Shown piece by piece: positions 30,957 through 34,606 of a stretch of DNA of 39,148 bases. Positions within the stretch are counted from its first letter, which is position 1. Each line of letters opens with the position of its first letter. The position numbers and the translations under genes are program-made. This stretch comes from Prevotella sp. (GTDB lineage: Bacteria > Bacteroidota > Bacteroidia > Bacteroidales > Bacteroidaceae). The notes under the pieces are model-generated. The model saw only the letters and a list, made by a program, of their open reading frames with translations. It did not search any database and had not been told where the DNA came from. Where the stretch lies: contig JAFWQE010000090.1 of NCBI GenBank assembly GCA_017509155.1, forward strand, positions 1 to 39,148, in the 5' to 3' direction.

Positions 30957-32111
30957 ATGGCTGCTGTAGAAATAAGAAAAGTGGAGACGAAGGACCAGCT
31001 GCGCACCTTCATCGAGTTTCACTACGACCTCTACGAGGGCAACGCCTACGACGTGCCCAACCTATATAGCGACGACGTGAACACGCTGTCGAAAGACCGC
31101 AACGCCGCCTTCGACTTCTGCGAGGCTGAGTACTTCCTGGCCTACAAAGAGGGGAAGCTGTGCGGCCGCGTTGCCGCCATCGTCAACCATAAAGCCAACG
31201 AACGGTGGCAGCAGAAAGCCGTGCGCTTCGGGTGGATAGACTTCGTTGACGACCGCGAGGTGTCGGCCGCACTGATGAAAGCCGTCGAGGACTACGGACG
31301 ACAGAAGGGCATGGACACCGTAGTGGGGCCACTTGGATTCACCGACATGGACCCCGAGGGCATGCTCACCTGGGGATTCGACCAGCTGGGAACCATGGCC
31401 ACCATCTACAACTACGACTACTACCCGCGCCACATGGAGGCACTGCCGGGCTACGTAAAGGACAACGACTACGTGGAATACAAGATATTCGTGCCCGACG
31501 AGATACCGGAGAAGATGCGCAAGATTGCCGAGATGATTCAGAAACGCTACCACCTGCGCATCAAGAAACTGAAGAAGAGCGACGTCTTCGAGGGTGGCTA
31601 TGGCAAGCGCATCTTCCAGCTCATCAACGAGACCTTCAAGGATCTCTATGGCTACAACGAGCTGTCGGACAAGCAGATTGACCAGTACATCAACATGTAC
31701 CTGAAGATGGCCGATCTGGAGCTCATCACCCTGGTGGAGGACGCCTCGCAGGACAACCGCCTGGTGGGTGTGGGCATCACCATCCCGTCTCTCTCTCGCG
31801 CGCTGCAGAAGTGTCGTCGCGGCAGACTCTGGCCCTTCGGATGGTGGCACGTGCTCCGCGCCCTGAAGATGCACAAGACCGAGGGCGTGGACCTCCTCTT
31901 GCTGGGCGTGCTCCCCGAATACCGCTCCAAGGGCACCAACGCCCTGATGTTCTACGACCTCATTCCGCGCTACAACAAATACGGTTTCCGCTGGGGCGAG
32001 AGCCAGGTGGAGATGGAAACCAACGAGAATGTGCAGGGACAGTGGGGCTACTTCGAAACCGTCAACCACAAGAGACGCAGGTGCTATCGCAAGGTGATAG
32101 GTGTTGGGTGA
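30957..32111 (+). CDS. GNAT-like acyltransferase family protein (YghO-type), unknown substrate
   Basis: Probable cytosolic protein of 384 residues related to the Gcn5-type N-acetyltransferase fold, of a long Bacteroidota form. It starts MAAVEIRKVETKDQLRTFIE, with YFLAYKEGKLCGRVAAIVNH (about 55-75) resembling the central GNAT strands, GPLGFTDMDPEGMLTWGFD in the middle, and a second half with LLLLGVLPEYRSKGTNALM, which resembles the acetyl-CoA-binding R/Q-x-x-G-x-G/A loop. It ends in NHKRRRCYRKVIGVG; the last five residues are encoded in GTGATAGGTGTTGGG, which belongs to the TGGGTGATGGG repeat unit that brackets the next gene. The true ancestral C-terminus was probably shorter or different. Confidence 0.75.
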   Translation: MAAVEIRKVETKDQLRTFIEFHYDLYEGNAYDVPNLYSDDVNTLSKDRNAAFDFCEAEYFLAYKEGKLCGRVAAIVNHKANERWQQKAVRFGWIDFVDDREVSAALMKAVEDYGRQKGMDTVVGPLGFTDMDPEGMLTWGFDQLGTMATIYNYDYYPRHMEALPGYVKDNDYVEYKIFVPDEIPEKMRKIAEMIQKRYHLRIKKLKKSDVFEGGYGKRIFQLINETFKDLYGYNELSDKQIDQYINMYLKMADLELITLVEDASQDNRLVGVGITIPSLSRALQKCRRGRLWPFGWWHVLRALKMHKTEGVDLLLLGVLPEYRSKGTNALMFYDLIPRYNKYGFRWGESQVEMETNENVQGQWGYFETVNHKRRRCYRKVIGVG

Positions 32112-32157
32112 TGGGTGTTGGTGTATAGTGTTTAACCTTATCTTGTTCATCAAGAGT

Positions 32158-32523
32158 ATGGAGACGTTCTATTATAGAAGACTGGAAGTCTATCAGAATG
32201 CCAAGCAGCTTGCAATCCATGTAAACGACACCATCAAGTGCTTCCCCAAAGAAGAACGCTACGCACTGACCGACCAGCTGCGAAGAGCATCGTCTTCCAT
32301 CTTGTTCAACATCGCAGAAGCTTTCGGCAGGTATTCTGCAAACGACCGACTGCGATTCCTGGAGTTTTCCTCTGGATCAGCCATGGAGGTATCGAGCGAA
32401 CTCGAACTGGCAGAAGCCTACGGCTACATTTCAAGAGAGATTCTTTCTTCATTTGACGAACAAATACTCGTCATTGTGAAGCAACTCTCCAAATTACGTT
32501 CCACAATAAAAACACAAGTGTAA
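32158..32523 (+). CDS. Four-helix-bundle protein (TIGR02436 / 23S rRNA IVS-type)
   Basis: Small helical protein of 121 residues of the family found within intervening sequences of 23S rRNA genes and scattered in many genomes; related to the Avd accessory protein of diversity-generating retroelements. The role is unknown. The product begins [20 protein letters not shown] and has the family marks [40 protein letters not shown] and [18 protein letters not shown]. The ATG at 32158 fits the family start better than an in-frame start at 32101 inside the repeat. The stop TAA is four bases before the parE ATG. No reverse transcriptase or variable repeat is nearby. Confidence 0.88.
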
Positions 32524-32527
32524 AGAT

Positions 32528-34606
32528 ATGACCGAGAAACCACTTTCCACCACCACCCAACACCCATCACCCACCACCCAAGGTGCCGAGCCATCACAAC
32601 CCGCCACCACCCAACACCCATCACCCACCACCCAAGGTGCTGAGCCATCACAACCCGCCACCACCCAACACCCATCACCCACCACCCAAGACTACGGCGA
32701 AGAAGCCATACGCCACCTGTCAGATGTGGAGCACATACGCACCCGTCCGGGCATGTACATCGGGCGTCTTGGCGACGGCTCGATGCCAGAAGACGGCATC
32801 TATGTCCTGCTAAAGGAAGTCATCGACAACTCAATCGACGAGTTCCGAATGAACGCCGGCAAGCGCATAGAAATAGACATCGAGGACAACCTGCGCGTCA
32901 CGGTGCGCGACTATGGCCGCGGCATTCCGCAGGGTAAACTCGTGGAGGCCGTCAGCCAGCTCAACACCGGCGGCAAGTACGACTCGAAGGCTTTCAAGAA
33001 GTCGGTGGGAATGAACGGCGTCGGCATCAAGGCGGTGAACTTCCTGAGTTCAAGGTTTGAGGTGCGCTCCTTCCGCGAAGGACAGGTGCGAACAGTGCAG
33101 TTCGAGCGCGGACAGCTGATGTTCGACAACACCCGCGACACACAGGACGAGTCGGGAACCTACATCTTCTTCGAGCCCGACGACACGCTTTTCAAGAACT
33201 ATCGCTTCCACGACGACACCGTGGAAACCATGCTTCGCAACTACACATACCTGAACACCGGCCTCACCATCATGTACAACGGCCGGCGAATCCTCAGCCG
33301 AAACGGACTCGAAGACCTGCTCAACGACCAGATGACCACCGAAGGCATCTACCCCATCATACACCTCAAGGGCGACGACATTGAGATTGCATTCACTCAT
33401 ACCAACCAGTATGGCGAGGAATACTACTCCTTTGTCAACGGTCAGCACACCACGCAGGGCGGCACGCATCAGAGCGCTTTCAAGGAGCACATCGCGCGGA
33501 CCATCAAGGAGTACAGCAACAAGAACTTCGAATACACCGACATCCGCAACGGACTCGTGGCGGCCATCGCCGTGAATGTGGAGGAACCCATGTTCGAAAG
33601 CCAGACAAAGATCAAGCTCGGGTCGCTCACCATGAGCCCCGACGGCGTCTCGGTGAACAAATACGTGGGCGACTTCATCAAGCAGGAGGTAGACAACTAC
33701 CTGCACAAGCACACCGACGTGGCCGACATCATGCTCCAGAAAATCAGTGAGAGCGAGAAAGAACGAAAGGCCATGGCCGGCATCACCAAGCTGGCAAGAG
33801 AGCGCGCCAAGAAGGCCAATCTGCACAACAGGAAGCTGCGCGACTGCCGCATTCACTTCAGCGACGTGAAGGACGACCGCAAGGAAGAAAGCTGCATCTT
33901 CATCACCGAGGGAGACTCGGCAAGCGGAAGCATCACCAAGAGCCGCGACGTGAACACGCAGGCCGTGTTCTCGCTCAGGGGAAAACCGCTCAACAGCTAC
34001 GGACTCACCAAGAAGGTGGTCTACGAAAACGAGGAGTTCAACCTGCTGCAGGCCGCGCTCGACATTGAGGACGGACTCGACTCGCTGCGCTACAACAAGG
34101 TCATCGTGGCCACCGATGCCGATGTCGACGGCATGCACATCCGGCTGCTCATCATCACGTTCTTCCTGCAGTTCTTCCCCGACCTCATCAAGAAAGGACA
34201 CGTCTATGTGCTGCAGACACCGCTGTTCCGCGTGCGCAACCGACGCACTCGCATCAAGAACAAAAAGGTTGTGGCTCAGGCCGACGAGGCCAAGGGAAAG
34301 AAGCTCGACTTCATTACTCACTACTGCTACAGCGAGGAAGAGCGGCAGAAAGCCATCAGCGAACTGGGACCGGAACCGGAGATTACCCGATTCAAAGGAC
34401 TGGGTGAGATTTCGCCAGATGAGTTCGCCAACTTCATAGGTCCCGACATGAGACTCGAACAGGTGACGCTCCACAAGAACGACCAGGTGGCCAAGCTGCT
34501 CGAATACTACATGGGAAAGAACACCATGGAGCGCCAGAACTTCATCATCGACAACCTCGTCATCGAGGAAGACCGCCCCGAAGAAGACTCCCTCCCCATG
34601 GACTAA
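32528..34606 (+). CDS. parE: DNA topoisomerase IV subunit B with repeat-derived N-terminal extension
   Basis: ATPase subunit of topoisomerase IV, which separates linked daughter chromosomes; it acts with ParC, not in this window. Of 692 residues, the canonical protein starts near residue 55 ([20 protein letters not shown]). The GHKL ATPase part has [17 protein letters not shown] and [11 protein letters not shown]. The TOPRIM part has Glu461 in ITEGDSASG and Asp530, Asp532 and Asp534 in [10 protein letters not shown], and it ends with [18 protein letters not shown] motifs. Residues 9-54 are two copies of [18 protein letters not shown] plus a partial third. They are encoded by 54-base tandem units that contain the 17-base inverted repeat of the neighbouring cassette. 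No in-frame ATG lies between the repeat and the conserved core, so the extension is probably translated. Confidence 0.93.
32552..32689 (+). repeat. 54-base tandem repeat inside parE
   Basis: Units start at 32552, 32606 and 32660 (two full, one partial). Each has ACCACCCAACACCCATCACC, then a spacer AAGGTGCYGAGCCATCACAA in the full units. The period is 18 codons, so unit number can change without a frameshift. Each unit contains CCAACACCCATCACCCA, the mate of the left repeat at 32105. Confidence 0.95.

Follow-up and report, generated by a model that had tools for sequence, protein, structure and literature searches.

The four-helix bundle gene and its arrays in the window

The stretch analyzed here is contig JAFWQE010000090.1 of the Prevotella sp. 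assembly GCA_017509155.1 (positions 1 to 39,148, forward strand), and its full length of 39,148 nucleotides is referred to as the window. It carries a small gene for a four-helix bundle (FHB) protein, which lies between an upstream gene and a parE/gyrB-like topoisomerase gene and is bracketed by short tandem repeats in inverted orientation (Table 1). The gene together with its arrays, named the FHB unit, is considered below as a putative mobile element.

An exact 17-base inverted repeat had been claimed around the gene in the original prediction, and it was confirmed, with one copy on the + strand (32105-32121) and three on the - strand (32557-32573, 32611-32627 and 32665-32681). When up to 3 mismatches were allowed, 12 matches were found, whereas shuffled sequence led to an expectation of 0.13. 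The copies are exact, but the 17-mer belongs to a pair of converging tandem arrays, built of the 7-base unit TGGGTGN, rather than being a single repeat. The repeat search aligned the inverted arms over 22 nt at 95% complementarity and over 31 nt at 81%. As predicted, the left copy covers the end of the upstream open reading frame (ORF), the last residues (VIGVG) and TGA stop of which are encoded by the left array; the name GNAT-like proposed for this ORF was not retained, since no Pfam or NCBIfam family was matched at E 0.001. The right arrays do run in frame inside the parE-like ORF, where they form part of a 54-bp unit repeated three times. This ORF scored under the cut-offs of the NCBIfam gyrB and parE models, and its repetitive extra N-terminus is mostly uncovered by the matches of relatives, which begin mostly near residue 47-56. 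GC content over the FHB gene (0.48-0.50 in two 360-bp segments) was lower than in the remaining segments of 31000-33879 (0.51-0.62), also as had been stated. The extent of the gene was revised: a TIGR02436 gene is present, but its likely start is the ATG at 32158 and not the GTG inside the left array.

The FHB protein matched TIGR02436 (E 9.4e-29, 99.8 bits for a cut-off of 24) and PF05635 (E 1.2e-29, 103.1 bits for a cut-off of 33.8). It is similar to Avd proteins (PHROG phrog_3206, E 3.6e-9), and relatives with solved structures are 2gsc and 2rld. Four-helix bundles form a homopentamer in a Xanthomonas relative, according to the available text of PMC4990558. PF05635 is the sole domain of the protein, and no Y1/HuH transposase lies between the repeats. 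No transposase domain was detected among the 23 window proteins scanned, and no genome-wide transposase search was made. The window gave no Rfam match at gathering score, and the unit is flanked by protein genes, not by 23S rRNA. No relative was found when viral contigs were searched with the window FHB protein.

Table 1. Positions of the FHB unit and its neighbouring genes in the window.
Feature	Position	Strand	Remarks
Left array of TGGGTGN-type heptads	32093..32123	+	The upstream ORF ends here; its final codons and TGA stop are part of the array
FHB gene, TIGR02436/PF05635, 121 residues from ATG	32158..32523	+	Family matches; ORF called mechanically from GTG 32101
Right array copy 1, inverted heptads	32550..32580	-	In frame within the parE-like ORF
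Right array copy 2	32604..32634	-	Repeat search
Right array copy 3	32658..32688	-	Repeat search
Three 54-bp direct repeats	32532..32693	+	Contain the right arrays; encode the extra N-terminus of the parE-like protein
Upstream gene (GNAT-like in the original prediction)	30873..32111	+	In relatives, conserved neighbour of the parE-like gene
parE/gyrB-like topoisomerase gene	32528..34606	+	DNA_gyraseB and Toprim domains

Inverted arrays across the FHB family

Flanks of FHB genes were compared in two sets, and a similarity score of at least 14 between the left flank and the inverted right flank was counted as a match. The first set comprised 68 FHB ORFs, 65 of which were scored (three lacked a flank), and the second comprised 84 FHB ORFs at 80 named loci obtained with a consensus query. 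Inverted matches were observed for 40 of 65 genes in the first set, compared with 31 of 1905 shuffled pairs (1.6%), 5 of 65 flanks taken in direct orientation and, among other ORFs, 1 of 48. The second set gave similar values: 52 of its 84 FHB genes matched, as did 118 of 3000 shuffled pairs (3.9%), 8 of 84 flanks in direct orientation and none of 29 other ORFs. The comparison shows this architecture to be general across FHB genes.

Periodicity was analyzed for 173 FHB genes kept from 183 after removal of short flanks and duplicates. Flanks were significantly periodic (z at least 4) in 140 of them, with period 7 in 107, 8 in 29, 9 in 3 and 6 in 1, so that period 7, 8 or 9 was best in 139 of the 140 significant cases. 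An inverted match was also present in 97 of these 139 genes. The left arm was G-rich in 87 of the 97 and C-rich in 5, and the arms lay at a median of 31 bp upstream of the start and 9 bp downstream of the stop.

The same organization was observed on cyanobacterial plasmids, where 10 FHB loci were fetched from 43 records with a match. All 10 had period-7 flanks at z at least 4, and 6 reached an inverted score of 14 or more; their units resemble the short tandemly repeated repetitive (STRR) sequences of cyanobacteria. The FHB gene of Nostoc edaphicum, for example, lies between nrdB and nrdA and is bracketed by TAGGGAG arrays. On two other cyanobacterial plasmids, FHB units are located between cas6 and cas4 of CRISPR loci (L239 and L240). 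Three 23S motifs had no occurrence in any fetched locus.

Longer proteins of about 220-260 residues with an N-terminal TIGR02436 match were also encountered (L314 in genome G011, L321-L323 in G083, L336 and L338-L340). The inverted flank of L314 is strong (score 33) with CTATAG-type repeats, and a 9-base repeat lies upstream of L322. These proteins may represent a second class of the element.

The repeat tends to differ between types of FHB protein. The predicted role of GGGTGATGGGTGTTGG as the terminal sequence of the TIGR02436 family was not upheld, for it flanks one of the eight TIGR02436 genes in this genome. Likewise, TGGGTGATGGGTGTTGG was ruled out as a family signature, with heptads at one of the eight fetched TIGR02436 loci of the window's genome. 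Among 38 FHB loci of nine genomes, GGTGNTGGGTG occurred at one further locus (L114), as a single copy about 600 bp from the gene. The suggested search for the repeat at other TIGR02436 genes was therefore negative for the sequence itself (one of eight loci) but positive for the architecture, each gene type having its own repeat. Different FHBs within one genome carry different repeats (L002-L008).

The association of protein type and repeat type was analyzed by trees and Mantel tests on 129 distinct proteins of 95-150 residues with z at least 4 and period 7-9. The tree required 14 switches between period 7 and period 8-9, compared with 20-28 in 500 label shuffles. Array similarity correlated with protein identity, and did so also when identity was below 60% (rho 0.12, the highest value in 300 permutations being 0.06). 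The correlation was also found between phyla (rho 0.14; largest of 500 permutations 0.08); for this test, three rows without a phylum were omitted and loci from the genome search were assigned to Bacteroidota, as same phylum or nearer. Arrays were shared by 47 of 184 cross-phylum pairs at 55% identity or above, compared with 35 of 1968 pairs at 30-45%. At seven fetched loci, an FHB gene lies within one gene pair, presumably sdhA-sdhB; the arms there read as three repeat types, left and right arms agree within each type, and the mean arm score was 16.9 for own arms against 11.5 for crossed arms. This tendency of FHB protein types to have their own repeat units suggests that the proteins probably recognize these units, either as DNA or as RNA.

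Filled and empty sites and arrays without a gene

An empty site between the two neighbouring genes had been proposed as a check, and it was found in nearly all relatives. The upstream gene was detected in 54 of 60 genomes of a genus sample, and 30 loci including the window's own were fetched. A parE-like match comes after the upstream gene at 28 of the remaining 29 loci, where the window FHB protein has no match at E 1e-4; the 29th (L045) is a stretch without a parE match. The distance from the upstream stop to the conserved parE core was 52-273 bp in 18 relatives, without heptads, leaving no room for an FHB gene plus arrays. At another locus (L294, in G083), an AGTTAGG array fills a gap right before the ATG of a product resembling the ParE N-terminus of relatives, with no FHB gene.

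Filled and empty forms of the same site were compared on cyanobacterial plasmids, with flanks 85-99% identical. Calothrix brevissima has 517-518 bp where Nostoc carneum, Tolypothrix and Aulosira have 10-11 bp, and Nostoc edaphicum has 494 bp where Calothrix sp. NIES-4105 has 13 bp. Plasmid pNsp_c of Nostoc ATCC 53789 has 516 bp against 13 bp in pNsp_b, and its comparison with pC052_A of C052 shows ATG at either side of an insert that separates two genes. Relative to four sister plasmids, pNsp_a carries an insert of 408-425 bp, which in one comparison has TTCTA at either end. Plasmid pC052_D of C052 has 433 bp against 16 bp in pNsp_b. The comparison of Anabaena sp. 90 with Dolichospermum was not clean (849 versus 273 bp, flanks 98-99% identical). 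A gene-less pair of inward AGGAGTC-type arrays spanning 270 bp in pNsp_a (L243, 715-984) also corresponds to 8 bp in pNsp_b (L354, 193-200). The comparison shows that sites which are otherwise alike differ by the presence of a whole unit. The arrays lie at the insert ends or within about 40 bp of them, and the empty sites are mostly array-free. The Calothrix flanks matched 41 records, two of them covering at least 80% of the query; many of these records lack the gene, which favours gain as the direction of change.

Arrays were also found dispersed in genomes. The window's genome contains 105 matches of GGGTGNTGGGTG, compared with 4 for the reversed control, and 10 of the 100 matches listed are at the window unit. 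Dispersed tandem 7-base units, by which heptameric tandem repeats of the STRR type are defined, are thus present in this genome. Across the 60 genomes, heptad matches numbered 242, 105, 42, 35, 22, 17 and 16 in seven genomes and at most 7 in the others. The unit AGTTAGG was picked from FHB flanks in G028 and G068. It had 32 matches in G028, 9 of which lie at the FHBs concerned, and 44 in G068, 3 of which do; G083 had 195 matches and G011 had 7, and no other genome had more than 3. Among the matches listed for four genomes (59 of 195 in G083, 44 of 44 in G068, 32 of 32 in G028 and 100 of 105 in G000), opposite-strand neighbouring arrays within 700 bp faced inward in 12 of 12 cases, 9 of which were gene-less. 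Amplification of an array and residence of an FHB with the matching repeat are linked, not one to one.

A probable transposase-free element and its alternatives

We consider the window unit likely to be a transposase-free mobile element, similar in logic to RAYT (repetitive extragenic palindrome-associated tyrosine transposase) and REPIN (hairpin-forming doublet of such palindromes) systems and unrelated to them. The original idea of a minimal cassette, bounded by inverted ends and with no transposase found next to it, is supported by the relatives that lack the gene at the window site and by the filled and empty plasmid sites. The unit would be about 0.4-0.6 kb and consist of an array of 7-9-base repeats with the G-rich strand forward, an Avd-like FHB gene and the same array inverted. 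By bridging the arrays, or the RNA stem that they form, the FHB protein may allow host enzymes to copy the unit into short gaps that separate genes of the same direction; inward array pairs that lack a gene may be copied likewise. In predicted transcripts the arms do pair (z -3.4 for the window and -8.1 for Nostoc). Such a stem would isolate the insert, and the insert would for this reason be tolerated in gene gaps inside operons, as are the intervening sequences (IVSs) in 23S rRNA that are excised by RNase III. The orientation of units was the same as that of both neighbours in 65 of 98 cases and opposite in 3, according to crude ORF calls, and the neighbours are unrelated to one another (cas6-cas4, nrdB-nrdA, integrase genes).

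A broader reading is that heptameric and octameric tandem repeats, cyanobacterial STRRs included, are generated and dispersed by Avd-like FHB proteins; the gene with inverted arrays would then be a transposase-free element in many phyla, the gene-less inward pairs its non-autonomous form, and the 23S rRNA IVSs one branch. This we hold tentatively, at slightly less than an even chance, because of the cross-phylum period result and a statement of Rehm et al., both given below. A link between FHBs and repeats would offer a candidate agent for the heptads that are abundant in some bacterial genomes, a possible recognition code that matches protein types with repeat units, and a form of mobile DNA for which no transposase is known. 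Such a link would further address the common annotation 'four helix bundle protein', which carries no function, and account for the S23p reading frame in rRNA IVSs.

Several observations weigh against these readings. A strong inverted flank was absent at 24-25 of 65 FHB genes in the first set and at 32 of 84 in the second, and 25 of 90 control ORFs neighbouring FHBs also had z at least 4, mostly with period 7 or 8; situated no more than about 1.5 kb from an FHB, these controls may owe their periodic flanks to shared arrays. Cross-phylum pairs below 30% identity shared arrays in 58 of 1126 cases, more often than those at 30-45%, and equal periods made up no greater share of the cross-phylum pairs as identity increased (0.77, 0.64, 0.66, 0.74). 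As to a target duplication of constant length, the plasmid comparisons gave a mixed picture: ATG or TTCTA lay on either side of the insert in two of them, and 7-16 bp were replaced in others. AGTTAGG was at none of the 11 FHB loci of G083 and G011, despite its 195 copies in G083. TAATGC, which flanks an FHB in G028, was not amplified there (10 matches, 6 of them in its own arms, versus 14 for the control), and G022, the genome richest in TAATGC, has 128 matches, none at its 2 FHB genes. No FHB with the TGGGTG heptad was found in G080, G074 and G031, which are rich in that heptad. Loss of the FHB gene after a burst, or other FHBs acting in trans, may explain genomes rich in solo arrays. According to the available text of Rehm et al. 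(PMC4692102), Xanthomonas and Nostoc heptads are generally unassociated with known mobile elements, which counts against the broader reading unless FHB units went uncounted as mobile elements.

Alternatively, the arrays could be microsatellites made by slippage that serve as insertion or recombination hot spots, with FHB genes recombining into existing inverted arrays and only loosely linked to them. Solo arrays do abound in genomes that have no FHB with the matching repeat, and heptads are common in the window's genome. However, the FHBs of one genome differ in their repeats, similar FHBs of different phyla share them, and the empty plasmid sites mostly lack an array, and we regard this explanation as unlikely. 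A stable regulatory or RNA-processing module, in which the FHB binds the stem of the paired arrays and autoregulates its own or its neighbours' transcripts without moving, would agree with the co-directional units, with the pairing arms and with the one gene pair that contains an FHB in seven genomes, where the repeats are of three types. The presence or absence of the gene on close plasmids, the lack of the gene at the window site in 28 of 29 relatives and the unrelated neighbours speak against this module, which appears improbable. Copying through RNA, in which a reverse transcriptase would be supplied in trans and the Avd-like FHB would be its RNA-binding partner, would be in line with the similarity to Avd of diversity-generating retroelements and with units oriented along transcription. 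Of the 81 FHB-positive Bacteroidota genomes, however, 34 had RVT_1 matches, compared with 15 of the 37 FHB-negative ones (Fisher p = 1.0), and the other 47 FHB-positive genomes had no RVT_1 match at E 1e-10, so that a required reverse transcriptase is unlikely and this route has a very small probability. A chance inverted repeat, conceivable in a genome with 105 heptad matches, is practically negligible in view of the family-wide matched inverted flanks compared with shuffled pairs and other ORFs.

The transposase-free unit was also compared with known systems, the nearest precedents being the 23S IVSs and REPIN/RAYT (for the latter, see PMC3116915). IVSs with an S23p ORF, such as the insert of about 430 nt in Coxiella burnetii, share with it a homologous protein family and a small insert in which the ORF lies between terminal inverted repeats, and mobility was earlier proposed for them as one hypothesis (PMC4990558, in the text available). 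The window unit differs in lying outside rRNA, in having ends made of tandem 7-9-mers specific to the protein type and in the solo arrays elsewhere. With REPIN/RAYT it shares a protein gene between inverted repeats that recur genome-wide as gene-less inverted pairs, here the 9 inward pairs found among the matches listed for four genomes. The FHB gene, in contrast, has no Y1/HuH transposase domain. REPIN/RAYT ends are single palindromes, whereas those of the FHB unit are tandem arrays. The FHB unit is set apart from both systems because a defining feature of each was looked for and was absent. Depending on grouping, it would be a new kind of element or, if IVSs are counted as the same kind, an IVS variant. 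Terminal inverted repeats are also shared with miniature inverted-repeat transposable elements. The protein resembles Avd of diversity-generating retroelements in sequence, but no reverse transcriptase is adjacent among the 23 window proteins (two RVT_1 matches are on other contigs of the genome), and reverse transcriptase presence does not track FHB presence.

The heptads themselves are already known. GGGAATC in Xanthomonas, where 70 and 75 inward-facing pairs were counted, and GGGGA(T/C)T in Nostoc are described with no agent named in the available text of Rehm et al. (PMC4692102). TAACTGA is described in Beggiatoaceae, cyanobacteria and Bacteroidetes by MacGregor, likewise with no agent named, and for this author the transfer mechanism was not evident (PMC4679880, in the text available). 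These repeats resemble the present ones in their tandem 7-base units and mostly intergenic position; the difference is that S23p or four-helix proteins are unmentioned in the available text of either paper. Within the accessible text of the open-licence literature, preprints excluded, no paper linking the FHB family with heptad repeats was found.

Elsewhere in the window, leucine-rich-repeat proteins are encoded at 36806-38974 on the - strand, with BspA-type repeats, and at 17025-19520 on the + strand.

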